26,440 bases of DNA from Heterotrichella gracilis. Its lineage: Eukaryota; Sar; Xanthophyceae; Tribonematales; Xanthonemataceae. The translations under genes were made by a program, and so were the position numbers. Shown one piece after another: positions 2,407 to 19,309 of this stretch. The stretch is taken from the NCBI GenBank assembly GCA_032358255.1, contig JAULBX010028813.1, forward strand, positions 1 to 26,440. Direction: 5' to 3'. Numbering within the stretch: the stretch's first letter is position 1; each line of letters starts with the position of its first letter. A model generated the notes under the pieces. The model saw nothing but the letters and a program-made list of their open reading frames with translations, did not search any database and was not told the DNA's origin.

Positions 2407-2932
2407 ATATGACGTCCGTCATCTCAAATTAAATTGTTGACAACGATTGCTCGAGCTCCTAGCCCAGGCCAAAGTTCAAAGGGGTTGAGCCTCAGGCTAA
2501 TGATGTGGCTGAAGACTGAGTCCCTCCTCACGGCAGTGACTCAACATCGATTCCAAGCAGGGCCTACAAATGCAGCATTGTCACAATTCAGACTCTCTAC
2601 TCTGCAAAGACTTGGTACTCTTACGTATGAGAAACTGTGTAGTACTACTGTGAGCCAGCCGCAAAACATTTGCCCCACTAATGAACGGTGTTAGGCAATT
2701 CATGCAAATTGTGCCTTATCAAAAGTTAACTTGCACTTCTGAAGTCGCAGTGTGCGCTTTGCAACATATTGTGTTGTGGAAAGATATCTATCTGCAACAA
2801 TATGGCCTGGCTTCCATTCCGCTGCTGCATGGCAAGCAACCCATTGGGCTGTGTGCACAGGTGCCCATAGAGCACGCATGTGAACAAGGGCAAGCAGGAG
2901 CCCAACAAATCCCCAAGGGGGCGCAATCACAG
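2407..2932. other. Intergenic sequence between convergent genes; no gene seen
   Basis: This is unique-looking sequence between the 3' ends of the LRR gene (+) and the methionine-salvage gene (-). The open frames here are under 105 codons and match no family I know. I found no TGTAA on the minus strand to serve the salvage gene. Confidence 0.4.
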
Positions 2933-2990
2933 GGCTGCTGTCCGTCCCGCCTACGCTCCTCCGCTGCCTGCGCCAGGTGGGCGTAGGAGG
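2933..2990 (-). repeat. Copy of the last exon of the methionine-salvage gene, in its 3' flank
   Basis: By eye, 54 of 58 bases match 3182-3239, which lies inside the final coding exon (encoding [16 protein letters not shown]). The offset is 249 bp, in the same orientation. It lies beyond the stop codon, so it is either in the 3' UTR or just past it. Confidence 0.8.
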
Positions 2991-3165
2991 CCAGGGGCCG
3001 CAGGTGCAATACGCACGTCACGAGTGTGGGCGGAGCTGGCTAAAGCTGCAACACGCGGCGCGCCTCAAGGGGGTCTCCAGACCTTGCCAGACCCTCAAGA
3101 GGGTCTCCAGAGCTGCCGAGCCACCGGGGTGAAGGGTGGTGCACACCACATGCACCCTCAACAGG

Positions 3166-6100
3166 TCACATGGGGAAGCATGGTTGCTGTCCATCCTGCC
3201 TGCGCTCCTCCGCTGCCTGCGCCAGGTGGGCGTAGGAGGCGATGGAGCGGGGGCTCTTGAGCATGCGCAAGCCGAGGTCAAGCGCTCGCAGCTCACACAC
3301 AGACCGGATCTGCAGGGGCAAATATCAGAATTGAAATTGCACTCTATAAAGTAATTTCGCCACCAATGAAGGTGGCGACTACGGCGACAGTTGTAGCTAC
3401 AATTGCCACTGCTAGGAAAGGCAAGGGGATGAGGGTGCTTTGGCATGAGTGGCCAGGGTACGCACAGCTTTCTGATCAGATTGCCCAATCGCACCTGTGC
3501 GTCCTCTATGCTCTCCATCTCTGCCACATGTGCGATGCCGATGATGCGCCGGATGATGACAGCACCACCAAACTGGATGGCATCCACCTGCAGCTGCTCC
3601 ATGAAGGCGGCCTGGGCAACCTGGAAATGGGGGGTTGGGGATTTAATCGGGGATTGGATGGGGATTGGGTGGGGATGGGAAAGGGGGGGGTGTAAAGATG
3701 GCTGACCACCATTTTGACCACCTTAAACATCTCTACCATGAGACTCTTGACTGTCATAGGGTAAAGCCTTGAGCGCCTTCAGTCCACTAGCCCCCACAGA
3801 TGACGTAGTTGGTTACAAACATGCATACCAGCATACCGTATGTGCATGTCATGGACAGCGATATGGATACCAGCATACCGTACATACATATATACATGCA
3901 TACAGGATACATGCATACTAGATACAGGATACATGCATACAGGATACATGCATACAGGATACATGCATACCAGCATACCGTATGTGCATGTCATGGACAG
4001 CGGTATGTGCATGTCATGGATAGCGATACTAATAGATGACAACATTAGCCAGACCTGAACCGCCTCTGCCTCCCAACCCCAAATCAAAGCAACAACAATA
4101 CCAGAACGGATACTAATGTAAATGAACATGTTACATTAGCCTCACCTTGAGCGCCTCCGCCCCCCCTTGCACCTCTGGCCCAAACAGGTGCGCAGGGAAC
4201 AGGTCCCCCTTAAGCCCCTCAGCACCCCACAGCTCCAGGAATCGCTCCGAGAAGTGGTTCCATACGCCGGACACGCTGTCCAGCAGCCACCGCCGCTGCG
4301 CGCTGCGGGGGTCGGCGTCTGCACGCGGTGGGGGATGGGATGTAAGGGAGAGCGGTGGAGGGTCAGTGAGGTGGGTGGAAGAATGCTACACCCCAAACTT
4401 GATCCGGCGCGCCTATCAGCATTGGAAAAACCACAAACCCCTGCACAGCGCAAATCACAAGCAAAAAACCCTGAACCTCAAACTGCTGAAACCTGCTAAT
4501 CTTGTTAACCTCCTAAACAACTATTTTTGTTCCCTGCAAAAATGATTTTTCTTGGCAAAGAGCAATTTTCTTCTCCCTTGCACTTTTTACCCACCTGTGG
4601 AGTGGCCATCAGCCGCAAAGAATGCCAGCAGCACATTGGCAATGAATTTGCCCACATCAAATGCGATCGGCCCGTAAAACGCAAATTCTGCGTCGATCAC
4701 ATAGAAGGTGTCCTCCGTTGCCATCACGCTGCCTGTGTGCAGGTCCCCGTGCAGGAGGGCCTCAGTTTTCTGAGTGAATAGGGCCTGCAGTGGGGATAGG
4801 AAGCAGAGTGATGTGAGATGGCAGTTGACAATGTTGCAGAAATCCCTTCACAAAGCCCTGCACCCTAAAACCATTCAGGATTTCATACTTTGGGCAATTG
4901 CGGTGGGCAATTGCAGTGCACCAACATGGGCACCAGATTGGTTTCCTTAAATCCTGAGCCTCAAACCCTGAAATCCTGCACCCTAAAACCCCCCACCTTG
5001 AGCTGCACACAGCCTGCTTGGCCTCTGCATCCCCGCGCACCTCCGCCACCCCAAACACTGAACCCTTAAACCCTAAACTATAGAATATAGACTAAAACCC
5101 TCAACTCCCACCTTGAGCTGCGACACAGCCTGCTTGGCCTCCACATCCGCATGCAGCTCTGCCTCCCAAACCCTAAACCCCTGCACCCTAAACCCCCTAC
5201 CTTGAGCTGTGACACAGCTGCTTAGCCTCCAAATCCCAATTCACATCCTAAACCCTAAACAGTCAACCTTAAAACCTAACCCTGACCCTAAACCCCCCAC
5301 CTTGAGCTGCGACACGGCCTGCTTGGCCCCTGCATCGCCATGCAGCTCCCCCACCCATGCATCCAGGTACGGCCGCGTCCATCGGTTGTTGTCTGCAGGG
5401 TGGTAGGGCTCCGTGAATATGACCTGCTCTGTCAGCCGGCACATCTCGGTGTTGCGGTACTGCTGCACGCGCTCCCTGGGGTGGGTGAGAAGGGAGGAAA
5501 CCCAGTGTCAGGGCGGCATTATCCTTCTGTGTGTTGGCCTAGGGCTGGCAGCCTCTGTGATGCAGCCCTATTAGCTGCACCCCGCCCCATCCCCCGCCCC
5601 ACATCCACACTCAGGCACACACCGCACCTCAGCATCACATCACCACCAGCACCCACGCAGCCCTGTGGATTCCACCAATGCAGAGTGCCCAACACCGCCA
5701 CGACAACCGCCACCACCACCACCACCGCCACCACCATCACCACCACCACCACCACTACCAACCCCCACCCCACCTCAGCACCGCCGAATCCACCGCCAGC
5801 AGGCTCGTCCGGAACAGCGTGGCAGCCATGAACTCCCCTGCCTGCTGCGACATTTTTGAGAAAACCGCCCCCGTGCGGATGCCGTGGCGCAGGATGAGGT
5901 GCGGGGGCGCCAGGTACTGCATGACCATGACCGCCTGTGCGGGGTCGTAGGCGTGGATGACGGGCACGTGCTGGGGGCAGTGCCGGGCTTCCTCGATCAT
6001 GGCCTCGGCTTCGAACCGCAGCCGGTCCTGCACGGGGTGCAGGTGGGGGCAGAGGTTGAGTGTGGGCAGTGGGAGTTGGCACGCGCTCTTGCGGGGGGGC

Positions 6101-9100
6101 ATTGCAGCATGGGTAGGGTGTGTGTCAATGTGGGGGCACGGCGCCATTTGCATGTGGGCAGGCGGATTTCGCAGTACGGTAATGATTCACCATCAACTGC
6201 TTCAATATATGTTCTGCCTGTACGATTGAAAAGGAACAAGTGCTGAGATGCACCGCCCCCTTTCCCCCCTCCACTTCCCACGCCATCAGCCTCCCATCCC
6301 CCCTTCCCCACCACCCCCACACCTGTGTCAGCGGCCACGACTCCCCCACGCAGCGCACAAAGGGCAGCGCCTGCTTCACACAAAGCCCCCCCTCTGGCCC
6401 CTCCACAATGTACACAAAGTTGATGTTGCCATCCCCAACCTCCCGCACCCCCCAGGCGTCGCGGGTGGAGGGTGGGCCCACGTGGCGGGACAGGTGGGGG
6501 CGCGCGGCCAGGTAGTCCCGAACCTTGTCGCAGTCTAGCACCTGGGGGCAGGGTAAGGTGTGTTTAGAACACTGCTTTTTGTGAGGAGAGTGTGAGACAC
6601 TGGCAAGGGTCTGGGGTGTAGGGTTTAGGGTTTGGGTGGGGGCGCGCGGCCAGGTAGTCTCAGACCTTGTCGCAGTCCAACACCTGGGGGTGGGGTGGTG
6701 TGGGGGTGTCTTGGTAAGGAGGGCGTTGCACAGGGTTCAGGGTTGGGGTTTGTGGAGGCAGGACACGTGCAGCCAGGTAGCACAGACTCACTGCCAGTTG
6801 AACTGCAACCCTGAGATTAGCAGAAAGAACCACGCAGCCCAAACCATGAGGTACATTGATATCAGCTAACATTCAGCAGGGCAAGCCAAACATTCACCAC
6901 AAAAACCAGCGGCGTACCACCCTACGATAGGATGAGATGAACACGTATCACAAACCCTTCGGTAGGGTGAAAGCCACCACGCACCACAAACCCATTGGCG
7001 ACGGCAGCGACCCCTGCCTCGACCCCCCCATTGGTGTCTTGCCACACGCCATGGTCGGTCAAAAACTGGTTCACAGCAAACGCATCGGGGCTTGCCCTGG
7101 GGATGAGGCCGTGCTCTGTGATGATACCCTCCAGTAGGGTTGCTGGGGTGACGTCGAAGGAGGGGTTCCACACCTGCAAAGCGGGGAGCGGATTGAGCTT
7201 ACCATTCTAAGATTCAGCGGTGTGCTTAGTGGTGCAACCCAGTTCACCATCTGTCATTGTGGCAGAGTGCGGTGCCATTGAACCGAATCCTCCCCCAAAC
7301 CCTACTAGGATGCGCTTGAACCAAATCCTCGTCAAACCCAAACCCTACTAGGGTGCAATAATAACAATTTAATCCCAAAACCTCACCTGGATCCCCTCCG
7401 CCGCCACTCGCACCCCCTGGAAGTGCGTGAGCTCCTCCGGCCCCCGCTCCTCAATCGTAATTTGCCCCCCTGAGGGGGTGTCGGGGTCACAGGTGGTGGT
7501 GGGGGCGGCGATGAAGACAGGCACGCTGCACGGGTGGGGTGTGGGGGTGTTGGTGTGGGTGTGGGTGTGGGTGTGGGTGTGGGTGTGGGTGTGGGCGTGG
7601 GTGGTCCAGCCAGACAGATCAGTGCCGAAGGCACTTGTTGGATCATCGCCAGATGGAGATATGCTCAAGGCAATGTGGCACCACTTCATGCACCCATGGG
7701 TCACACGCAATGCCATAATCATCGAACCGGATTTCATTGCTGAAATGAATAGACGAGCAATACATGATCTCATGTAGATTTGTGGTGATGAGTGGTCCAG
7801 TTACATTTGATTACTTCCAGCCGAACATACTTGAAGTGTGACGCCACGATCGCCAAATTGCAGGTCCCGATCTTGTTTGCGGTGTCCCCATTGGCCGCGA
7901 TTCTGTCTGCACCCACCACCACCGCATCCACCCGCCCCGAGGCCATCAGCGCCGCTGCTGCTGAGTCAGCGATGAGCGTGGCGGGCAGGCCCTCGTGCAC
8001 TAGCTCGTAGGCTGTCAACCGAGCACCTAAAAATGAAAGGGGGAAAAGCAGTTTACTTCATTGGCAGCTGGGGATACAATAATGTTTTGCCAAAAATGGG
8101 ACACGTCAAGTGCTTCATTGACTATTGAGTCACAGTGCCGTACGCAACCCCCGTACTGAGCGCCCCACAACCCTGCCCAACCCTACCCAAACCCTACCCC
8201 AACCCCACGCACCCTGGTTGTACGGCCGCGTCTCCGTGCAGTAAGCATGCTCCAGCTTGCCCGCCTCCCCGAGAGCACGCACCACCCCCAGCGCGGTACC
8301 ATATGCTGCAGTCGCCAGGCTTCCTGTGTTGCAGTGCGTGAGCACCCGTACCTGTGCGGGGGTCGCCCCGCTGCGCCGCTTTGCTACGGCAGCCAAGAGG
8401 CCCTCTGCGCCATGGCGCCCAATGGCCTGCACATGGTTGCAACGTTTAGGGTTTAGGGTATAGGTGGGAGGGGTTTAGGGTTTGGGTAGGCCGGCTGCGC
8501 CGCGGTGCCCGATGGCCTGCGCATGGTGGGAGGGCAGTGGTTGCAGCTCGTTTATGTAGGGTGCGTTGGACTCGATCCCAAACCCTAACCCTATGATAAA
8601 CCGGCTGCCTGTGTTGAACATCACCTCAAGCTTAACAATGCCTTGTCTTACTCTGTATACATTAAACTCCCACCTTGTTTGACGCAATGTCGTCGTGCTG
8701 CGCCTGCTCTGCTGCTGCTACTACTGTCTAAACCCTAAACCCTAAACCCTACACCCTACACCCTACACCTTCACCCCACCTTGTTTGACGCAATGTCGTC
8801 CTGCTGCGCCTGCTCTGCTGCTGTCACTACTGCAACGACCACCTCCTCACTTGACCCCCCGTGGGCAGCTGCTCGCTCGGCCACGCCAGTCAGAGCGGTG
8901 GCAGCGATAGCCAGGTTGACGGCGGTGGGGCGGCTGCAGGGGAGGGGTTTGGGTCGGGGGCGGGGGGGGATGCGGACAAGGTGGTGGGTGTGGGTGTGGG
9001 TGTGGGTGTGGGTGTGGGTGTGGGTGTGGGTGTGGGTGTGGGTGTGGGTGTGGGCGTGGGCGTGGGCGTGGTATAATGTGGGTACCCCAGGCAGGGGCGA

Positions 9101-9755
9101 GGTTCAGTGCGTGCAGCAGTTTGTGTTTGTAGGATGTGCATTGGAGGGTGGCAGGCAGCGATCAAGAGGTGTGGATATTGATAACCAGCTGCCCAGACCA
9201 ACATATATCTATAGAACTCATATATCGATAGAACTCATTTTCTCACTAACACTTAGGGTTGTATCTATCAGCCGGGGCCACTGCTGCCTATTTGTATCGC
9301 ACAACAACAAACAAACCAATATAGCACGCAAGCAAGAATCGGCACATGCCACCACAGGTACAGAACAAAAACATTCCAGCGTAGCTCAAGGTGTACGAGG
9401 CAACCCGCGGAATATGCGGCGTATGTATGCATGCATAGGATGTGAACGCATGCGCTGTAGGAAGCACCCACCTAGTCACCAGAAACTTCATCTGCTCTTT
9501 GACGTACTCCGCAGCCTCTGCTCCAGTAGCAAACTGCGAACCGTTCCCCTGTTTGACCAGATCCGCGGCCAGCGCAAGGCCTCCTGCGATGGCGATGGCC
9601 GGCGCCCCACGCACTGCCATATCCTTGATGGCTGTCCATGCCGCCTGCAGATCTGGGATGTCGATGAAGACGCTTTGGAGCGGCAGCAACCGTTGGTCGA
9701 GCAGTTGTAGCGACCCCTTGGTGTAGCGTATTGCCTCCAGCGTCCTCGCCGTCAT
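3166..9755 (-). CDS. mtnAK: Bifunctional methylthioribose-1-phosphate isomerase / methylthioribose kinase (MtnA-MtnK fusion), 13 exons
   Basis: One 818-residue reading frame covers two consecutive steps of the methionine salvage (MTA) cycle. The kinase makes MTR-1-phosphate from methylthioribose and ATP, and the isomerase turns it into methylthioribulose-1-phosphate; both are soluble enzymes. Exons on the minus strand: 9755-9472, 8933-8780, 8426-8213, 8026-7831, 7525-7387, 7173-6985, 6541-6323, 6027-5774, 5475-5301, 4784-4595, 4318-4146, 3620-3495, 3309-3166. All introns are GT-AG and all phases agree. The start is the ATG at 9755-9753, where the isomerase family begins ([17 protein letters not shown]). 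The fusion rests on three points. The kinase's first exon begins directly at a splice acceptor with no ATG. The preceding isomerase exon ends at a GTGCGT donor in matching phase. The joined residues [15 protein letters not shown] resemble the usual kinase N-terminus. If the last isomerase intron is not spliced, a stop at 6922 gives an isomerase alone of about 412 residues. The alternative is two genes with an unseen kinase start. Confidence 0.82.
3815..4035. repeat. Intronic minisatellite of CATACAGGATACATG / CATACCAGCATACCGTA units
   Basis: It lies in the intron between salvage-gene exons 11 and 12 (4145-3621). About four AGGATACATGCATAC units sit between two imperfect copies of a longer block (CAGCATACCGTATGTGCATG followed by TCATGGACAGCG). 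No reading frame or splice signal is implied. Confidence 0.8.
4994..5248 (-). repeat. Three decayed tandem copies of the exon 9 / intron junction of the salvage gene
   Basis: The true junction is at 5301/5300 (exon end GAGCTGC-type coding on the plus strand, donor at 5300-5299). Copies begin at about 4994, 5109 and 5198. Each starts with (C/T)ACCTTGAGCTG on the plus strand, so each preserves CTCAAG followed by GTGGG or GTAGG on the coding strand. The 5109 copy matches about 50 of 59 bases. Blocks of CCCTAAAC-type repeat separate the copies. Confidence 0.85.
5697..5760. repeat. (CCA)n tract just inside the intron after exon 8
   Basis: An impure CCA/CCG/ACC trinucleotide run begins 12 bases into the intron on the coding strand, where it reads (GGT)n directly after the GTGGGG donor. 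It contributes only spurious His- or Pro-rich frames. Confidence 0.8.
6635..6699 (-). repeat. Decayed copy of the kinase first-exon 5' edge, with acceptor and in-frame stop
   Basis: This copies 6493-6555 (acceptor plus start of exon 7) with about six differences in 60 bases. On the coding strand it keeps CCCCCAG before GTGTTGGACTGCGACAAG. The next codons are GTC TGA, so an exon started here would terminate after seven codons. It lies 130 bp upstream of the true acceptor in the same intron. A still more degenerate third copy of the segment may lie at about 6764-6790. Confidence 0.85.
7553..7604. repeat. (GTGGGT)n hexamer array upstream of exon 5
   Basis: About eight GTGGGT units lie in the intron between exons 4 and 5 of the salvage gene, ending 28 bp before the exon 5 acceptor. 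The coding strand is (ACCCAC)n, a C-rich tract where a polypyrimidine tract would sit. The plus strand fits a G-quadruplex pattern. Confidence 0.85.
8446..8527 (-). repeat. TTTAGGG-like repeats and a copy of the exon 3 5' edge
   Basis: TTTAGGG-like units at 8446-8485 are followed at about 8486-8527 by a block matching 8396-8437 (acceptor plus first codons of exon 3), with about 34 of 42 bases equal. The copied acceptor (GCGCAG on the coding strand) is intact, upstream of the true one. Confidence 0.75.
8670..8768 (-). repeat. Copy of the exon 2 3' edge plus CCCTAAA repeats
   Basis: Bases 8670-8726 match 8777-8833 at about 54 of 57 positions, including the donor (AACAAG followed by GTGGG on the coding strand). 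The copy lies 107 bp into the intron. It is separated from the true junction by CCCTAAACCCTAAACCC and CCCTACA units (8727-8768). Confidence 0.88.
8984..9070. repeat. (GTGGGT)n hexamer array upstream of exon 2
   Basis: About fourteen GTGGGT units, turning to GTGGGC at the end, lie in the first intron of the salvage gene, 50 bp upstream of the exon 2 acceptor. The unit and position relative to a 3' splice site match the array at 7553. Confidence 0.88.
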
Positions 9756-10513
9756 AGTGAAGCTACTGTTGGGAAAGGACGTTGGCTAGCAATGGAAGAA
9801 TGAAGTGGCCACAGGGCCCAATTGGTTGCATGCAATACACTACCAGCCAACTGGCAGAGCAGTCAATACACAGCAACACACGATATAGTGGGCTTTGTTT
9901 TCGTTTGTTGTGGGTTGACGAGTACTGTTGGCGTTATATGTGTGGTATTCAAAGCACCCAAGCCGCCGATGCGCCGGAGTGCTGACCACCGCTGGCGGCC
10001 TCCCACTCTTGGCACAGAGGAAGAAAGTGTACACATACGCTTGCGCAACTCGCTAAAACATACATCGTGCGGCCTTATTCTCTGTCACTCTGTATTCCCT
10101 TTAAACGACGCTGCACAAGCCACTGTGAAGGTGAGGGTCTGCATGGCTTCTCCACATGCACACACATGCCGGGCCACCATGTTGTCTGCAGTTGAACCAA
10201 CGCCTGTTAAGGCCTTGCACGCTACAGCTCTCAATCAAGGGAGTGAAAGCCTTTATTTAACCCTTGCACAGTGTGAGTTTAAATCCACCATGGTAGCAAT
10301 ACTCGGCACCGCTGACGGCATGCACACGGTCGCCTATACCATTGCTGCGAGTTACAACTGCGCCATGCTTATCCAGCAAAGTCGTGCAAAATTTATACCC
10401 CCTTGCTTCAGGAACCCAATTTCCAAAGTTGCAGCCAACAAGGAGCCGGCCGGTTAGCATTTTCTCGCAGTGCACTGACTTGAAGGGACATCGCTCCAGG
10501 ACCAGACAACAAG
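9756..10513. promoter_or_regulatory. Shared intergenic region between divergent salvage and methyltransferase genes
   Basis: Translation starts face away from each other across 758 bp, so both promoters should lie here. I see no TATA box or known operator that I would defend. A frame from 9822 to 10457 is open but has no convincing start or family match. Confidence 0.4.
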
Positions 10514-11694
10514 ATGGCGCACGGCAAGATGTGGGTTGTGGGCAGCCTCCTCTCCCTACTGACCTGCCAGTGTTCATTCCTGGCTGGCTCCCCTCTTGAC
10601 AGCGACGCGTCAGCGCACTACGACGCCGAATACTTCGAGTGGCAGCGCGGCATGGGAGAGTTTGGAGCCATCGCAGACAGGTGGAAGTTCGGGCCCTTCA
10701 TCGCCCCGGGCAGCGTGTGTGTCGACTTTGGCTCGGGTACCGGCTACATGCTGGCTAGCCTCGTCAACTGCTCGGTAAAATTGGGGGTGGAGGTCAACCC
10801 CCACGCGCGCACGTTTTCAGAGAAGGAGAATGCGGTGGAGACCGTGCGCAGCGCGTCCAAGCTGGAGGACGGGTTTGCTGACGTGATCATCAGCCACCAC
10901 GCCCTGGAGCACGTGCCTTCGCCCTACCATGTGCTGCGCGTGCTGAGGACCAAGCTGAAGCCCGATGGCCTGCTTGTGGCTGTGGTGAGTTCCCCTGAGC
11001 CACGTGCTGGGTGCCCGTGTTGGCCCCACGTGTGCACACCCCTGGTGGGCTCCTTGCGGCGTTGGTGATGCGGGTGTGGAAGTGAGTTGGGTCTCCCATG
11101 TTGCTGCAAGAAATTCAACAGGGCTACCTATATATTCACTGCTGTTAACCCATTTTGGCCACACATGCGCCACCATTAGAGGAGGTCCAATGCATGAGGC
11201 CATCACCACATGTTCCAATCACCAACCCCTGTGCCCCATACCTGATGTTATGTTTGAGCCACAAGCACCAAACTCACAATGCAAAACACTTACCATTTCT
11301 TGGTGCTGGGTGCCCATTTGATCGCACACTCGCCACCGCTGCAATTGTGTTGACCATTACCACACCATTCCAAACCCTAATCCCTTTGCCCCACACCCCA
11401 CAGGTCCCCGCAGAGAAGTCGCCCACCACCTACGACCCCACCGACGTCAACCACCACATCTACACATGGAACGGCCAGCTGTTCGGCAACCTGCTGCAGG
11501 AAGCCGGCTTCGAGGTGGTGGCTGTGGATGAGCTGCAGAACAACTGGGTGACCAGCAGCATGCAGGAGCTCAAGGAGATGGGGCTGGATGAGTTCCACAG
11601 GGCCTCCTCCCAGAAGGCGCGTGACAACCACCTGTACCAAGTGCGGGGCGTGGCCCGACGGGGGGCCACCAAGCAGCGAAAGCGGCAGCACTGA
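10514..11694 (+). CDS. Class I SAM-dependent methyltransferase with N-terminal signal sequence, 2 exons
   Basis: Exons 10514-10984 and 11404-11694 join in phase (GTG donor GTGAGT, acceptor CCCACAG) to give 253 residues. The start ATG at 10514 sits in AACAAGATGGCG and opens a hydrophobic segment (residues 6-24, MWVVGSLLSLLTCQCSFLA) that looks like a signal peptide or signal anchor. The enzyme probably enters the secretory pathway. The Rossmann-type methyltransferase motifs are clear: motif I VCVDFGSGTGYMLASL (about 76-91), the acidic SAM-ribose contact LGVEVNPHA, and FADVIISHHALEHVPSP followed by VLRTKLKPDGLLVAVVP (about 118-159). The C-terminal half (YTWNGQLFGNLLQEAGFEVV) is the usual Methyltransf_11/23-like ending, and the extreme C-terminus is basic (RRGATKQRKRQH). 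The substrate is not readable from sequence. Its head-to-head placement with a methionine-recycling gene may be chance. No exon-edge copies occur in its single intron. Confidence 0.85.
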
Positions 11695-12804
11695 TGACAA
11701 CAGAATAGCCACTCATTTGTTATTGGTGATGAAACGCCGGCAGCACTGACAGTGAGAATGCATAGCATGGCATGGTTGTCATTAGTGGGTTTAATTCTTG
11801 GCCATGTTTGGGGCTGAGTAGTACTACAGCTTTCTGCCTTCCTTGCCCATTGCTGTTTCCTAAGTGGCCAATCAGAGGTTGTTCTTTCTCCACACTGACA
11901 CAACCTAAGCAGCTGTTTTTACCATGTATTGGCTCTCCTTGAAAATATATGCTGCAATCAAACCATTGCTCTCCAGGGTAGAAAATGCCGCGGATGGAAG
12001 TCGTTTTATTGCACACAGTGCCCCACTGTGCGCGACAAGGATTTAGCATGCGCCAGCCGCTTCCCTTGCTTTGTATAGGCTATGGTGTCTGCACATGTAC
12101 ACGTGTGGATGCAGGTTGGGATTATTCAAAATACCTGTAGACAGCTACGAGGCCTGGTACCCAGAAATTCAGTCTAAGTACGTGGAAATACAAGTGGCCT
12201 TACAATTGCAAGGTTGTAACCCTGGTGTTTCCTATGTAGCTTTGAGCAGGCTATGATGGTCTAACACGCAACATCAAAGCTTGGATTAAAATGGTATCAT
12301 GTGGCCAAGCTCTGGGCGCAAGGGGCAGTACACTGTCAGGGTTGAGGGTTTGCGGCACACAGGGCACCTCAACCGTTGGTGCAGGCCTGGCAGAGTGTCC
12401 CATGGCTCAGACCCTTGAAGGCTGAGGCCATGCCCGAGTTTTCCCAGCTCCCACACACATGGTACGCAGCTGGAGTGCGCAGGGAAGTGGCAATAGCAAA
12501 CAACCGTATCGTTTATGGGAAAACAGCCATGAAATTCACAGGTGTTTTGCTAGGGTTTCATTAGGGTTTCAGTGGAGTTGTCCTTCACTGCTGAGTGACC
12601 CTTAGCCCAGATTCAAAAGGAGTAGGAGAACGAGCAACTATCAATACGAAGTACACTTCACACCATTGTGTTGTAGTTGTCGCATTCAAGTGCAAAGTTG
12701 TTCCCCACACACACGCATGCATCACCCACCAACGCAGGGTCTCAATCCACCCATATCAAAAACCCCGTGATGACCTGCACCCTAACCTGCCAACCTCCTT
12801 GAAG
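11695..12804. other. 3' flank of the methyltransferase and 5' flank of the ABC gene
   Basis: About 1.1 kb lies between two same-direction genes. It should hold the methyltransferase 3' UTR (see the TGTAA at 12215) and the ABC gene promoter. TAGGGTTTCATTAGGGTTTC at 12551-12570 is another TTTAGGG-like remnant. I see no other gene; the frames present are short. Confidence 0.45.
12215..12219 (+). terminator. Candidate TGTAA poly(A) signal of the methyltransferase gene
   Basis: It is the first TGTAA downstream of the stop, in the right orientation, about 520 bp away. This would imply a long 3' UTR, so the call is moderate. Confidence 0.4.
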
Positions 12805-15800
12805 ATGCTGTTGGAAATCGAAAACTTGAGTCGTGTTGTGAACGGGCGCGCAGTCATTCAGGGTTTGAGCTTTACAGTCGAGGCGGGCGACATCGTGTTT
12901 ATTCGCGGGGCATCTGGAGTGGGGAAAAGCCTGCTGCTCCGTGCCATAGCGTGCTTGGATCCCATACAGGTACAGTCTCCATTAGTTTTGGTTATAACAC
13001 GCTGAGCCATGCGCAGCCATCTGTGTTGCATCTTGACATCATGCCATCGCATGTGGCCGGTGCAGGACGGGGCTCTGAGGTTGGACGGCAAGTCGCAGAA
13101 GGAGGTTGGCGTTCCTACGTGGCGTTCGCTCATCACCTACGTGCAGCAGTCGCGAGTGACGCTCAAGGGGACGCCCTCAGAGCTGTACTTCCTTGCACAG
13201 GTCAGAGCCCGGGAAAAACCCCTGCATGCATTTATATGCATGCATTGTAGCCATGTCACCGGTTCGCATTGCCTGCCGTCGCCCACGTACAGACCATGCG
13301 TAGGCCAAAGTTGTAGCATATTGAAACGCTCCCCTGCTCTTTCCCGTATTGCCGCATATATATGTGCTGCACATGTATGCCTCACCACTACAGCGCCGAA
13401 GTCAGGCCTGGGCACAACTGCCTGTACATCTGTTTAGAGCTATTACAGGCCTTCTTACATCTTATTCCCCTTTACCTTATTTGTTGTGGGAACCTCTAGT
13501 GGCTGGTTGCGTTTCAAGCCGTGGACCCACCATCACTGTCTCCTGGGGTTAGACCGGCGCCTGATGCATGCCTTGCTGCTCCCCCCTGCGCAGAATTTTG
13601 CAGCGCAGAAGGGGCGTTCTAGGGGTGACCTCCCCGCCCTGGTGCACGAGTTGGGCTTGGAGCAGCTGGTGCTCAACCAGCCCTGGGCGGAGCTGTCGGT
13701 ACGGCATGGGAGTTACATGTACATTGATTAATATTGTAAGGGTTTGTGGCAGGGTTTGTGGTGTACTAGGGGCTTGGAGCAGGTGGTGCTCAACCAGCCC
13801 TGGGCGGGAGCTCTCGGTACGGCGCCTTTAAATAAATTATCAATAATATTAAGTGTCATTAAATTAGTGATAAGTAAATTGCTATAATGCATTCATTTAC
13901 CAGGGGCGTGGCATGACAGCCAGCAACAGCCCGGCATACGCCAGGTATGTGCCGGGCACCCAAGCCAGCTACAGCTCAAAAAAAGCTTACGGGTGTTCTC
14001 TTTGCAGCCCAGCCATGCATAAGGCCAGTGTATTACTTTCATTGTATTTTCAGCCAGGATGCGTCCAAGCCAAGGGTTTCATGCGCACCGCATTTCCCTT
14101 TGCCATGCGTTTGGTTCCGATTGCATTTGCGTTACCCAGGATTCCATGCTGTCCGGATGTGCCCTAGCTAAGGGTATTTTTGTGGCTGTGCAGTGCGGCC
14201 AGGCGCTGCCTGTAGCCATCGTGGCCGTGCATCGACGTGTATAAGCTTCACCGCATTCTCAGCCCCGGAATATACCCTTGCTAAGGGTGTTTTGTAGCTG
14301 TATAGGGCGGCCAGGCTCAACGCGTAGCCATCGCCATCGCTGTGGCTCTCAAGCCGCTGGTGCTGCTGCTGGACGAGCCAACCAGCTCACTGGACCCCGA
14401 ATCTACCCTCAGGTAGGGATGTAGGGTACTATTATTATTTACTATTATTATTATTAAAGCGGGATTGTTATCATTAATATGGCACGCGGATGCTGGGTAT
14501 GCTGGCGCTCAGAGTACAGCTACACGCGTGTGGATATCCAAGTGCCCTGCACTTCTGTCATGATTAGCCACCGCCAACTAAATGCATTTTGAATATTTCA
14601 ACAAAATTAAGGGATTACAGAGCGCTTGACTGCCACCACCCATGTTGCGCAGGGTTGAGAGGGTATTAAAAGAAAGCGGAGCGGCGCTCGTGTGGGTATC
14701 CCACGACCCTAACCAGCCCTCGCGCGTAGGAGGGCGCATTATCACACTCCCCCTGGGCACCGAATCCAGCGTGGAAGCCACCCAGGCCCCCCAGATTTCC
14801 CAGCTTTTCTCCCCAGATTCCTCCGTATTTACACCCCCCCCAGACATTCGGACGGCCAGCCCCCTCGGCAGCCATGGGGACCACACGGGGATTGATTTTG
14901 ACCACTCGGGGATTGAGTTTGCTGAGTCAGCGGTGAGCTCGCCCTATGGCAGCATGCTGACTGCGGACTCGCGCTACGGGTCATTCACAGGGTCTTTCAC
15001 CTCCCAGGTGTAAGGGTTTTGCAAGGGTTTTGGTAGGGTTTTCCTCTCGCGCTTGAGGATTTTGGTAGGGTTCTCCTCCCAGGTGCAAGAGTTGAGGGTT
15101 TGGCAGCTGTGAAACCCATACCACCACCACCACTACCACCACCACCACCACCACCCATCACCACCACCAGCGCACAATGGCGTCCCTGGCCAGCCTCATT
15201 CACACAGCCGGATCCATCCTAGCGCCCTCCCCAGCACCCGGTCACATGCCCCCCTTGGTCGCCTTCCTCCCCTCCCCAGCCCACGCGCCCTCCCCTTCCC
15301 ACAACTTCACCACGCCCCTTGCGGCAGCAGCCACCGCAGCACTCACCACCCTCCTCTCCACCACCAACACCTCAACCACAGCCATGGGCGCCACCGCACT
15401 CACACCAGCACCGCCCTCGGCAGCAGCAATGGGCGGTGGGGACTCTGTCAGCCCCGGGGATGCTATGGCGCTGTCTGCACTGGATGTGGGCCTGGCTGCG
15501 CTTCTGGTGCTGGTGGCGGGGGGGCTGTCGATCGTGCTTTCACTCAATCTGCACAAGAAGATCCTGGTGGCCGCAATCAGGTGGGAACAGGTATTTTTGA
15601 GTGAGCCGTTTGTTTATGTGATATATGATGCTGCTGTCAACCAACTTGCACCAGAAGTGAAGAGTGGCATCCTGTTGGCTGCAATCAGGTGAGAACAGGG
15701 CACGTTTGTGTGTGTACGGTATTTTCCGTTGTACAAACGATATGTGCATGCAGGTGCATGAAATGTTTCTAAGTGGAGCCTGTCTTGTTCCCTAAAAATG

Positions 15801-18703
15801 TCTATTCTATTTCCCCAATTACTGGTATCGGCACGACAGGGTGTGGTGCAGCTGACAAATACTGGGCCATGCTTTGTATTTATCGTGACAAAAATGCCGT
15901 GACTGTGCAGGCATCAGCCGAATATTTAACATTTTACGTTTCGGGATTTTGCTGACTGGGCTTTGTCAATAATTGCATATGTGTGCACGCAGGTGTGTTG
16001 TGCAGCTGACTGTGCTTGGCTATGTGCTCCTGCCCATCTTCCGCGCCAACCGCTGGTGGCTGGTGCTGCTGTTTTCGGGGCTCATGCTGGTGGTGGCGGG
16101 GGCGGAGGCCGTGTCGCGGCCGGCGTACGCCTACAAGGTGGGGGGTGGGGGGGTGGGGGTTGGGAGAAGACAGCGATGCTTGTGGGGCAATGCGGTGACC
16201 ATTTTCGAATGCAACTGTAATTGATAGGATAAAGTTTGGAAATGAGGATGTAATTGAATGTTAATTACCCTCGAGTTTGTTTTCCCTCGCCCAAACTCTC
16301 CAGGGCATATTAGGGCAAGTGGTAACCTGCCTGGACATCGAACCCCACAAGGGTTTTTCATTGACCTCAACACCCTCGCAAGGGTTCTCACCCCCCCTCC
16401 CCACACCCCACAGGGTATGCTTGGCCAGGTAGTTGCCTGCCTGGGCACCGCGCAGTCTTGACCATGGCCGCATTACCCTCGTAAGGGTTTTCGGGCCCCG
16501 TCCCCACACCCTCCAGAGCATATATACATGACCACCTCAGTAATATCTGCACACCTCCCACGCCCTACAGAGTATAAACACGACCAAACTCACTAGAATC
16601 CACACCCCGCTCCACATCCCACAGGGCATGCTTGGCCAGGTTGTTGCCTGCCTTGGCACCGCGGCTGTACTAACCATGGCCTACGTGCTGGCCCTGGTGG
16701 TGAGTACCCACCCCTGGTGGCAGGCGCAGTACTTCATCCCGCTGCTGGGCATGACGCTGGGCCAGGTCATGAGCGCCATCAGCATCGGGCTCACCCAGCT
16801 GCTGGAGGAGCTGGTCACCGGTAAGGGTTTAGGGTTTAGGGTTTTAGGGTTTAGGATGTGGGTCTCGCGAGGAATCTGTAGGGTAATGAGGTACAAAATC
16901 GCTTCTGTGCACCGGTGCCCCCTGCGGTCATACCTACATCGAGCACCAAACCCTATTCACTGAACAGTAAACCCTAACTACGCAGGCAAGGACCGCATCG
17001 AGACCCTCCTGTGCCTGGGCGCCACCAGGGGGGAAGCGTCAAAGGCGGTGGTGCAGCGGGCAGTCACCCTGGCTATGGTCCCCACTCTGAACGCAATGAG
17101 CGTGATGGGGGTGGTATCCATCCCGGGGATGATGACGGGCCAGATACTGGGGGGGACGGACCCAGCGCAGGTGGGGATTTTCGAGGGGGAAACCAGATCG
17201 TGGTTTTAATCATGTTTTCAGCGTATCTGAGATGAATGTCCATCCCGGGGATGATGACGGGCCAGATACTGGGGGGACGGACCCAGCACAGATGGGTTCC
17301 GGAAATTTTTCGCTTCTTGGGAAGGGTTTTAGACATTTTGTGGCATGCACGTACTGCTGGCCGCTGCCCGCTTTCCCAAAAGGGCTCAAGAAATGCCTGT
17401 TTATGTCGCAATCCGTGCATTACCTTCGATTTTGCAAGAAAGATGTTGCAAAAGCTTTAATTTGAAGTTATAATCCTCTGGGATTGCAGGCTGCTCGGTA
17501 CCAGATGATGGTCATGTTCATGATCACTGCAGCCAGCAGCATGGGGGTGGCGGCTGCGGTGCTGCTGGCCGCGGCGCATGTGCTTGATGGGGACCACATG
17601 CTGCGCCTGGACCGCCTGCAGGCGCGCGACTCGAGTGCCAGCGGGGTGGCGGCCTGGGTGGCGGCGCAGGCGGTGGAGGTGGGTGGGGTGGGTGGTGGGT
17701 GGGGTGGAGTTTGGTGATGGTGGCGTTTAAAACGGGGGGACTTGCTGCACCTGGAGTGCCCTTACGCACTTCTTGTAGTGGAGGGCAAGTGTCCACAGCT
17801 GACATGCACAACTCTGCTCCTGCTCCCTAGAGGAGCATGCATGACCTGTGGCCTCGCCATTCACCATCCCCACACACAACCGCCACTGTGTGGCATCCCG
17901 CGTGTTGCTGGATGGCATCAAGTAAGCCCAACCGCAGCTGCACGTCTCCTTGGCATGAACTAGGAAAACAATGGAAAATGAACAGTGGCTGGGTAAGGAA
18001 CCCAAAGCGCCCACAGCGCCCCTCGTCCCCTGCCCCCCCTGTAGGCATCCCGCGTGGGCATTGAAGGCATCAAGAAAGGCTGGCGGCGGCTGCACGTCTC
18101 CTTTGTGGGCGTGGATTGGCGCAGCCAGGGGGGGTCGTGGCTGCGGCACAGGTTCCAGCGGGTGGGGAGCGACGATGATGGGCACCACCTGACGGAAACC
18201 CTAAGGGTGACCAGCAGCAGCCGCATGCAGGTGAGGGGGGCCAGCAGCACCGCAAAACCTAAACCGATAAGGCTGATTAGCAACAGCAGCATCCCCTGGT
18301 TGTGGAGATTTGATGCTCAATGAGTGGCATGCGAGGGGAGGATGGAAATGTGGCAGACACCGACCCTTGCTAAGGGCCATACTGCAGACGCACCCAGTTT
18401 CCGGGAATAAATGAACATTTTAACTAAGGACGCTTAAGGCTAATCTTGCAGCTGTTTTGTACGTCACGTGTACGCTTGCAAATTCCGTCAAATATTTATG
18501 AGGCGTACAGGATAATGCACCGCATTTTCCCTTGCGTGCAGGAGCCCATTTTGGAGGGCCAGTCAGTGAGCGACATGGAGGCCAGCCCCCCCCGGGAGTC
18601 CCTGCGGGTCCCGGGGGGGATGAGCCCGCGCCTGCACGACTATGGCAGCTCGCCAGGTGGCGCCAGCACACCGCCCGGGGGGCGCCACCTGGGCCTGCAA
18701 TGA
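12805..18703 (+). CDS. ABC transporter with fused ATPase (STAR1/FetA-like) and permease (ALS3/STAR2/FetB-like) halves, 12 exons
   Basis: Exons: 12805-12969, 13066-13200, 13594-13698, 14306-14412, 14653-15007, 15171-15580, 15993-16137, 16625-16820, 16986-17170, 17490-17678, 18045-18230, 18542-18703. All introns are GT-AG and phases agree, giving a predicted 779 residues. In plants the two halves are separate proteins (STAR1 ATPase and STAR2/ALS3 membrane partner, linked to aluminium tolerance). In bacteria they are FetA and FetB (linked to iron homeostasis). Here the ATPase frame reads to GTG TAA at 15008-15013. However, CAG before GTGTAAG is a good donor, and the acceptor at 15169-15170 continues in phase into the permease frame through residues RTMASL. 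The alternative is two genes 163 bp apart with the permease starting at ATG 15177. That gap is tight for a 3' end plus a promoter, although TGTAA does overlap the stop. Transported substrate and membrane are not determinable here. Confidence 0.7.
13770..13824 (+). repeat. Copy of the ABC exon 3 3' edge
   Basis: It matches 13653-13706 with few differences plus one inserted base, 117 bp downstream in the intron. The donor GTACGG after CTCTCG is kept. The inserted base would shift the frame if this donor were used. Confidence 0.85.
14168..14221 (+). repeat. Copy of the ABC exon 4 5' edge
   Basis: It parallels 14281-14333, which holds the acceptor and the codons for the ABC signature (GGQAQRVAI). 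The copy retains a better-looking acceptor (GTGCAG versus GTATAG). Its codons read CGQALPVAI, so the signature would be damaged if it were spliced in. Confidence 0.75.
15008..15170 (+). other. Putative 163-bp intron joining ATPase and permease halves
   Basis: The donor is CAG before GTGTAAG and the acceptor is CACCAG. Both flanking exons are in phase 0. Just before the acceptor is a (CCA)n tract (15120-15169). A short copy of the donor region (CTCCCAGGTGCAAG) lies at 15074-15087. If unspliced, a stop occurs two codons in. Confidence 0.6.
15669..15699 (+). repeat. Copy of the ABC exon 6 3' edge forming a second in-phase donor
   Basis: ATCCTGTTGGCTGCAATCAG before GTGAGAACAG repeats 15561-15591, 108 bp downstream. 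The frame stays open between them. A donor at 15689 is in the same phase as the true donor at 15581, so its use would add exactly 36 residues. Confidence 0.85.
16301..16470 (+). repeat. Copies of the ABC exon 8 5' edge
   Basis: Bases 16395-16457 closely copy 16606-16668, including CACCCCACAG and GGTATGCTTGGCCAGG, but reach a stop after 15 codons ([15 protein letters not shown]). A more diverged copy follows the cag at 16301-16303. Two short CCCTCCAGAGCATA / CCCTACAGAGTATA units at about 16514 and 16568 resemble the acceptor alone, giving five acceptor-like units counting the true one. Confidence 0.8.
16821..16856 (+). repeat. TTTAGGG-like repeats at the exon 8 donor
   Basis: The intron begins GTAAGGGTTTAGGGTTTAGG and continues with TTTAGGG-type units. 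It is the clearest example here of telomere-type repeat abutting a splice donor. Confidence 0.8.
17233..17291 (+). repeat. Copy of the ABC exon 9 3' edge, donor lost
   Basis: It repeats 17113-17172 (codons for [13 protein letters not shown] and the donor) about 120 bp downstream. One G is deleted in the G-run and the donor CAGGT is changed to CAGAT, so it looks inert. Confidence 0.88.
17887..17957 (+). repeat. Copy of the ABC exon 11 5' edge, acceptor lost and stop gained
   Basis: It parallels 18040-18110. GGCATCCCGCGTG and GCTGCACGTCTCCTT are kept. The acceptor TAG became TGG, and GGC ATC AAG is followed by TAA. Confidence 0.82.
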
Positions 18704-18743
18704 CAGCTGGACAACCAGGGGTGCGCAGAGGCTGTGTTACACC

Positions 18744-18795
18744 TAGAAAGAAAGAAAGGAAGGGGACGCACAAAGGCGTATAAGGGCCCACCTAC
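18744..18795 (+). repeat. Dispersed element, copy 2
   Basis: AGAAAGAAAGAAAGGAAGGG runs into GACGCACAAAGGCG, then TATAAGGGCCCAC. It begins 41 bp after the ABC gene stop, so it lies within that 3' UTR. Confidence 0.65.
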
Positions 18796-18852
18796 AGTAG
18801 GAAACGGGGGTGTCTATTTTTTAGATTCTTGTGGTGGGCAGCCGTGAGGGAT

Positions 18853-18914
18853 TATGCCAGCTCGCCAGGGGGCGCCGCCACACCACTGGGGGGCGCAACC
18901 TGGGACTGCAGTGA
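18853..18914 (+). repeat. Copy of the ABC gene's last coding block in its 3' flank
   Basis: It repeats 18641-18703, the final 63 coding bases including the TGA, at an offset of about 212 bp. The stop triplet is conserved at the matching place. A second, more diverged copy lies at about 19127-19186. Confidence 0.8.
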
Positions 18915-19030
18915 CATCGCCACCAATGGCAGCTGGCAGGGGGTTCACCCAGGGGGCCAACCAGCTGGTGCTGCGCATGTGCCACCCACTGGGCAAGGGG
19001 TGTGTGAATTGGGGCATCATTGTATGTACC

Positions 19031-19074
19031 AGAAAGAAAGAAAGGGGACGCACAAAGGCGGAGTTCAGGGGCCA
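19031..19074 (+). repeat. Dispersed element, copy 3
   Basis: AGAAAGAAAGAAAGGGGACG continues as CACAAAGGCGGAGTTCAGGGGCCAC. It is the cleanest copy and lies between the two 3'-end copies of the ABC gene. Confidence 0.65.
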
Positions 19075-19126
19075 CTGGCCCACGTTGTGATGGGCCAGCA
19101 TAATGCTAGCGCAGTGGCTACTGCAC

Positions 19127-19186
19127 GGGGCACAAGGGGGCGCCAGCACACTGCTGGAGGGGGGGCGCCGTTTGGGCCTGCACTGA
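19127..19186 (+). repeat. Second, diverged copy of the ABC gene's last coding block
   Basis: GGGGGCGCCAGCACAC, then GGGGCGCCGTTTGGGCCTGC before ACTGAG, parallels 18657-18703. It is weaker than the copy at 18853. Confidence 0.6.
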
Positions 19187-19309
19187 GTGAGGTCCGACTA
19201 GGCGACATCAGTACTGTACCAATTCGCCTATGAAGGGGTTCATGTGAACGAACTATTAGTAATTTGCGTTCACTTATCAAGTTGTCATTTTTTGTACCGG
19301 TGTCCTACT

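Follow-up and report, generated by a model that had tools for sequence, protein, structure and literature searches.

Rice carries patch-mediated tandem duplications (Vaughn and Bennetzen 2014), which are local, come with insertions and are ascribed to asymmetrical nicks, breaks and end joining, some of their sources lying within 200 bp of the break (PMC7407515). Interstitial telomeric sequences of human and horse were inserted when breaks were repaired; a duplication was the sole change at 3 of 66 horse loci, and 31% of the human loci lie in introns, as random insertion gives (PMC7215372). New introns of Daphnia are described at staggered breaks, with repeats of 4-12 bp of the exon end at the opposite end of the new intron (PMC4202315). 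Here we describe a stretch of 26,440 nucleotides of the xanthophycean Heterotrichella gracilis (GenBank assembly GCA_032358255.1, contig JAULBX010028813.1, positions 1 to 26,440; the window, hereafter), in which two long genes, a salvage gene and an ABC gene, hold copies of their own exon edges in the neighboring introns and 3' flanks, and a sample of the same genome in which the pattern recurs. The reading that we favor, with a probability of about one half, is that these are insertion-duplications of break repair that originate at exon edges and extend introns.

The copies resemble each of these systems in part. Local duplication with inserted sequence is shared with the rice events, which differ, as described in the available portion of that account, in having no tie to exon edges and no mention of telomere filler (PMC7407515). 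Telomere repeats are shared with the human and horse loci, where they were inserted during break repair; here, in contrast, introns have about seven times the intergenic density of such repeats, and exon edges are duplicated alongside (PMC7215372). The Daphnia introns likewise combine direct repeats with insertions, there at breaks in repeated bouts of intron lengthening, whereas the present repeats are mostly 25-110 bp long and lie beside the same junction of an existing intron (PMC4202315).

Unlike introners, the introns analyzed here have no element common to many of them except the telomere repeat. Introners bear on the origin of intron sequence. Proliferating stwintrons also concern that origin; those with terminal inverted repeats are unlike the present case, in which the sample yielded two inverted pairs within 550 bp (PMC8469720). 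The combination of exon-edge duplication, telomere filler and intron lengthening, avoiding the rest of the genome, was not found described in the literature searched, which lay mostly outside the subscription journals.

Exon-edge copies in the two long genes

Each edge was aligned by gapped local match to the intron or 3' flank beside it, and its score set against 300 shuffles per edge. The original prediction had named 12 copied edges in the two genes; all 12 exceeded every shuffle. The copies are real, and such copies also occur outside the window. In the salvage gene, on the reverse strand, the end of exon 2 with its donor (8775..8829, in the IF-2B-family part, PF01008) is copied in the following intron (8669..8723) with 97% identity in the ungapped core, and the two are separated by a filler of telomere-like (CTAAACC)n (8727..8774). 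The acceptor edges of exon 3 (8398..8437) and exon 7 (6493..6553) are copied at 8488..8527 and 6635..6695, respectively. The donor edge of exon 9 (5291..5357) has three copies within 4986..5268 (4986-5064, 5107-5170 and 5190-5268), and exon 13 near its stop codon (3179..3245) has a copy of 90% identity in the 3' flank (2930..2996). The ABC gene, on the forward strand, presents the same arrangement. Its donor edges are those of exon 3 (13653..13705, in the PF00005 part; copy at 13770..13823, 97% in the ungapped core), exon 6 (15535..15590, in the PF03649 part; copy at 15632..15698) and exon 9 (17121..17175; copy at 17243..17296, with an identical core of 38 bp). Its acceptor edges are those of exon 4 (14294..14333; copy at 14182..14221), exon 8 (16613..16663; copy at 16402..16452, with a fainter member of 66% at 16284-16342) and exon 11 (18033..18094; copy at 17880..17942). 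The coding 3' end of this gene, including the stop codon (18654..18705), is copied in the 3' flank (18866..18916), which also holds, at 19160-19188, a short third member of 29 bp and 79% identity.

Similarity is graded, as had been noticed, from the 38-bp identical core and the cores of 97% down to the level of the shuffles. Six further, weaker edges also beat all 300 shuffles: the donors of salvage exons 6, 8 and 11, and in the ABC gene the exon 5 donor, the exon 7 acceptor and the exon 11 donor. The shorter genes had been said to lack copies, and indeed none of their tested edges exceeded all shuffles. The methyltransferase gave two matches at p<=0.0066, both under the best shuffle; the oxygenase and b561 genes had no edge match at p<=0.0066, and the glycoprotein gene had none among its four splice edges (its 3' end and an LRR-like gene stood outside the test). 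This is weak evidence for a difference among genes, as the four have 8 introns in total, and zero copies among 8 are expected about 15% of the time at the rate of 70 in 329 found in the sample. When the repeat families of the window with an offset of at least 75 bp were classed by annotation, 11 of the 13 were exon-anchored, 1 intron-only, 0 intergenic and 1 exon-only, against 6.3, 2.1, 2.9 and 1.5 under random rotation (exon-anchored range 3-11). Within the window alone, this excess is suggestive only.

Pfam supported all seven window segments tried (7/7), which came from both long genes and a further three. The salvage gene has an IF-2B-family part (PF01008), the family of methylthioribose-1-phosphate isomerase, and an APH kinase part; the ABC gene has an ABC ATPase (PF00005) and a UPF0014 part (PF03649); the remaining supported genes are the methyltransferase, the 2OG oxygenase and the cytochrome b561. 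The hand-set ABC model has in-frame stops (its exon 1 start and its exons 5 and 6 are placed only approximately) and was excluded from the codon-position counts; the hand-set glycoprotein model likewise shows stops. Rfam returned no match in the window, and no second copy or haplotype of the salvage gene was found in the genome.

Placement across the genome sample

The genome (68.5 Mb in 903 contigs) was sampled by the window and 20 stretches of ten kb, giving 21 sequences and 226 kb, of which about 216 kb is readable. One of the 20 stretches is entirely N; it remains inside the 226-kb denominators and, being without repeats, leaves family counts and rotations unaffected. Four of the 24 stretches fetched (L002, L013, L015 and L020; GC 35-40%, long open frames, one contig of 894 kb) are probably from bacterial companions, as judged by composition alone, and were excluded from the counts. 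Two later stretches, one mostly N, were added to the window-free family counts, the telomere percentages, the detection and tolerance simulations, the splice-site scores and the count of 658 junctions; a separate edge scan of 651 junctions included one of these later stretches and excluded L019 and the two N-bearing stretches. A hidden Markov gene finder trained on the sample itself predicted 43 genes with 357 introns. Predicted mini-exons that were exon-edge copies counted as artefacts under our masking rule, and 329 introns remained once mini-exons consisting of copy only had been masked and the window genes set by hand. Pfam supported 6 of 6 predicted proteins tried, all from copy-bearing stretches.

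Ungapped self-comparison (offset 25-500, score at least 20) found 200 local direct repeat pairs, compared to 2 at far-control offsets of 3000-3475. Inverted pairs within 550 bp numbered 2, and the offsets peaked at 100-150 bp, in agreement with the original description of the copies as nearby and in the same orientation. The copies lie mostly 75 to 300 bases inside introns. Among the 100 families with an offset of at least 75 bp, 88 were exon-anchored, 7 intron-only, 0 intergenic and 5 exon-only, where rotation gave 57.8, 25.3, 9.0 and 6.6. An excess no greater at junctions than elsewhere had been named as the result that would overturn the prediction, and this is not what the sample shows. 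The youngest families (identity at least 93%, n=25) were distributed as 23, 2, 0 and 0 over the same classes, compared to 14.1, 6.0, 2.8 and 1.6 by rotation. The 22 families with an offset below 75 bp (7, 8, 1 and 6; rotation 7.6, 8.4, 2.2 and 3.7) are placed as by chance and form an internal control. When the window and the N stretch were removed and the two later stretches added, the 90 families were distributed as 78, 7, 0 and 5 against 51.7, 24.2, 7.5 and 5.1. The two later stretches themselves contributed 3 families (one each in the exon-anchored, intron-only and exon-only classes) and 1 copied junction, and neither support nor refute the pattern.

A copy accompanies 83 of the 658 junctions in the 20 readable loci (48 donors, 35 acceptors) and occurs in 70 of the 329 introns. 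Introns with a copy have a median length of 448 bp, compared to 259 bp for those without, and longer introns also offer more room for a copy; intron growth, which had been proposed as a possible cause, is plausible as a consequence. The edge scan, made with a 52-bp edge, gave 107 direct matches. Of these, 94 fell on the intron side, no more than 600 bp away, and 10 on the exon side at 300 bp or less; the other 3 were beyond 1.5 kb. A single match was inverted, and with this count inverted or distant copies were rejected as part of the pattern. Nor did we find signs of intron creation by tandem exon duplication: donor blocks that recur at the acceptor of their own intron were not above chance, with 3 junction-plus-junction families of 119 against 3.8 by rotation.

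The copied block and its filler

Exon-anchored pairs whose copy is intronic numbered 116, and 111 of them lay within 60 bp of the junction of the copy-bearing intron. Among those 111 the block reached a median of 43 bp into the exon at donors and 50 bp at acceptors, and 7 bp and 9 bp, respectively, into the intron. The blocks had been described as centered on exon boundaries; they do span the boundaries, but reach only these few bases into the intron. In the youngest donors (n=16) identity was 0.81-0.94 at positions +1 to +6, 0.69 at +7 and about 0.4-0.6 beyond. At gene 3' ends the block borders fell 1 bp (L003) and 2 bp (L017) past the stop codon, and 2 bp past it in the ABC gene (gapped), and the ungapped identities of these three blocks were 82-87%; a coding side that decays more slowly may by itself account for their borders. 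The border in the salvage gene lies 13 bp before the stop codon, and that in L019 lies 52 bp before a doubtful predicted end.

The copies contain stops (15 in 1572 codons) and indels, and their mismatch rates by codon position (0.093, 0.088 and 0.171) are near the expectation for a neutral copy of a constrained exon. Two tandem paralogues in L019 (1-1653 and 7999-9636) share their copies. Aligned across the pair, one copy matches at 47 of 57 positions (rest of the intron, 324 of 410) and the other at 96 of 102 (rest of the intron, 320 of 332); by these alignments the copies have diverged as much as the surrounding intron. The second intron of the paralogues is about 96% identical and the first about 79%, a pattern as after gene conversion. 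Splice sites within copies are still strong, in part because in-register cases were selected, and scored somewhat lower than real ones, with medians of 6.3 versus 7.3 for donors and 6.4 versus 7.4 for acceptors.

Telomere-like sequence makes up 3.85% of intron bases, 0.55% of intergenic bases and 0.23% of exon bases (N excluded), introns thus having about 7 times the intergenic density. The telomere heptamer covers 3.2% of intron, versus 0.17-0.29% for seven permuted heptamers. Contig ends carry the same repeat, of the TTTAGGG type, and by this comparison of motifs the intronic insert matches what appears to be the organism's own telomere repeat. A telomere-like tract lies between the nearest copies in 41 of 77 cases and beyond the copy in 25 of 77, and in several acceptor cases the tract abuts the exon-internal end of the copy. 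Copy-bearing introns are 8.5% telomere-like and the rest 2.1%. By locus, the introns of L012, L017 and L018, with 11-13 copied junctions, are 5.5-9.3% telomere-like. No junction is copied in five of the 20 readable loci (162 junctions), nor among the 198 junctions of L006, L007, L010, L014, L025 and L036, whose introns are 0.4-2.2% telomere-like. Addition of telomere repeats always outward from the exon was rejected, since the repeat runs in either direction within donor fillers (17 and 16 of 67 cases). Acceptors are nearly free of sense TTTAGGG (29 versus 658 bp), which may reflect selection on splicing.

Two non-telomeric fillers, searched against the genome, matched only themselves, consistent with the earlier remark that no named element was recognized. 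The matches between introns of different genes (n=93, the L019 paralogues included) comprised 83 that were telomere-like, 4 from the L019 paralogues and 6 others, of which 5 involve one piece of about 100 bp in a single L018 intron. This piece (intron 8427-9445, intron positions about 502-611) is a dispersed repeat present in five introns of other genes, at 79-84% identity and in both orientations. Another short dispersed repeat of about 100 bp, at L019:3114-3217, occurs at more than 30 places on other contigs with 75-88% identity. Two (GGGTGT)n arrays stand in introns of the salvage gene (window 7532-7603 and 8984-9071). The motif GAAAGGGGACGCACAAAGGCG, or a near variant, was seen by eye in 3' flanks of window genes (about 2354, about 18747, 19040-19060 and about 23640); with up to 2 mismatches it occurs at 306 places in the genome, compared to 0 for the reversed pattern, and three of the listed places are near contig starts.

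Proposed break repair at exon edges and its alternatives

Under the break-repair reading, each event would have one end inside the exon and the other just past the splice site. Through a staggered break, paired nicks or a backward template switch, the sequence between about -45 (exon) and about +7 (intron) would come to lie on both sides of a gap. The gap would be closed by filler, which in about half of the cases contains telomere repeat and for which telomerase would be the source. At a donor the outcome would be the exon edge with its splice site, the filler, the copy of the edge and then the old intron; the outcome at an acceptor would be the mirror image. Selection would act as the filter, in that an event would survive only if the exon-adjacent copy kept the whole splice site, because splicing would then remove the filler and the second copy. 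The intron would gain roughly 100-200 bp at its end, and the edge copy would afterwards decay without constraint. Three causes had been proposed originally, namely repair-driven tandem duplication, reverse-transcript capture and a step in intron growth. Repair-driven duplication fits best, as the events are local, direct and accompanied by filler; they are direct local duplications separated by filler, and they are not indifferent to gene structure. Capture of a reverse transcript in its simple form is unlikely, because the block holds intronic bases of the splice site and matches almost only within 600 bp of its own junction.

Several observations weigh against this mechanism. The filler would be an insertion, and no ancestral empty site has been seen; 36 of the 77 fillers are without a telomere tract. 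We know of no break mechanism with such a preference for exon edges. The rate of copied junctions is uneven over the 20 loci (chi-square p 2e-13). The similarity of the intron flanks past the block exceeded the 95th percentile of controls and was in register in 28 of the 111 pairs, versus 1.2% of 996 controls, and above the threshold at any register in 50% of the 111, versus 5% of controls (54% by a cruder test). Flanks are sometimes far more diverged than the block, as in L017 near 2502, where the block is 98% identical. These alignments point to some units having been longer, older tandem units whose exon part was perhaps refreshed in some families. Young blocks, moreover, differ at 78 of 661 third positions versus 55 of 1320 first and second positions, a bias that we estimate to be somewhat above that of a fully neutral copy.

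The alternative with which we began, that tandem duplications fall uniformly and only their survivors are seen, was dropped after the tests of age class, detection and tolerance, and we now hold it to be unlikely. It supposes that exon-internal duplications are lethal, that intron and intergenic pairs fade faster since both of their copies drift, and that junction-spanning pairs stay visible through their constrained exon copy. Exon-internal families are indeed few, at 5 of 100 and 0 of the 25 youngest, although against 6.6 by rotation they are not clearly depleted. The blocks at the 3' ends in L003, L017 and the ABC gene end 1-2 bp past the stop codon, as if only constrained sequence could be aligned, and in simulation old intron-internal pairs are detected less often than edge pairs (30% versus 68% at 15% divergence per branch). 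The bias, however, is equally strong in the youngest families (23 of 25) and absent at offsets below 75 bp. Simulated detection of intron-internal and edge pairs was 97% and 98% at 3% divergence per branch, and 85% and 93% at 6%. Uniform placement with survival of only the harmless events predicts an edge share of 24%, or 31% with a 1.4-fold detection advantage, and 88 of 95 (93%) was observed; even with a threefold advantage the p value is 3e-20, and 5e-6 for the youngest 25. Since young intron-internal events are detectable and the edge share is far above the prediction, the events appear to favor exon edges as their starting point, barring some misleading feature of the predicted gene models; the window, with its hand-set genes, gives a similar picture in small numbers.

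The diverged flanks and the third-position excess are what one would look for if the copies were instead old tandem duplications in which gene conversion from the exon, or selection acting on the copy, has preserved the likeness of the exon part as the intron flanks decayed. An intact splice-site core in 81 of 90 in-register copies, where about 70 are expected under neutrality, also agrees with this account, though the difference is partly an effect of ascertainment. We consider it quite improbable: the two L019 copies differ as much as the surrounding intron, stops and indels are present in copies, and 83 of the 111 flank pairs fail the in-register test. A simple tandem unit including the intron flanks was rejected as a general description, 28 of the 111 passing this test. 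A transcript could also have guided the events, if RNA hybridized to the exon, or RNA fragments trimmed to splicing factors, set the breaks or templated the copy. The exon-edge preference, the absence of intergenic families and borders at about +7 and -9 would suit such guidance, but the copies are in cis, direct and local, unlike inserted cDNA; the three 3' ends bordered at the stop codon are inexplicable by an RNA footprint; and selection alone would equally require a minimal length of splice site, all of which leaves this idea with an outside chance. A mobile introner-like element, or another dispersed repeat next to exons, would account for many look-alike events in many genes, yet the two non-telomeric fillers are unique in the genome and 83 of the 93 intron matches between genes are telomere-like (4 from the L019 paralogues, 6 other), and we regard it as very improbable. 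The assembly is a draft with low-GC, probably bacterial contigs, which might raise the suspicion of an assembly or haplotype artefact; graded divergence, location at exon edges, telomeric filler and copies in both L019 paralogues make that hardly credible.

To our knowledge, the growth of existing introns is poorly documented, and for a mutational bias to exon edges, should it prove real, we know of no accepted cause. About one splice junction in eight of the sample (83 of 658) bears the trace of what would be one growth step, in which source, filler and borders can be read. The donors within copies score nearly as high as real ones, and a comparison of strains could directly test both the tolerance of such decoy splice sites and intron growth. 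One extension of the break-repair reading, distinctly unlikely in our judgment, is that exon edges are hot spots at which a factor that recognizes exons, most probably exon RNA paired with the DNA or splicing factors bound to it, would direct breaks a few bases beyond the exon; filler and another copy of the edge would then be inserted by telomerase and end joining. If this were true, intron growth in this lineage would proceed step by step from the intron ends, through a mutational process guided by exons.

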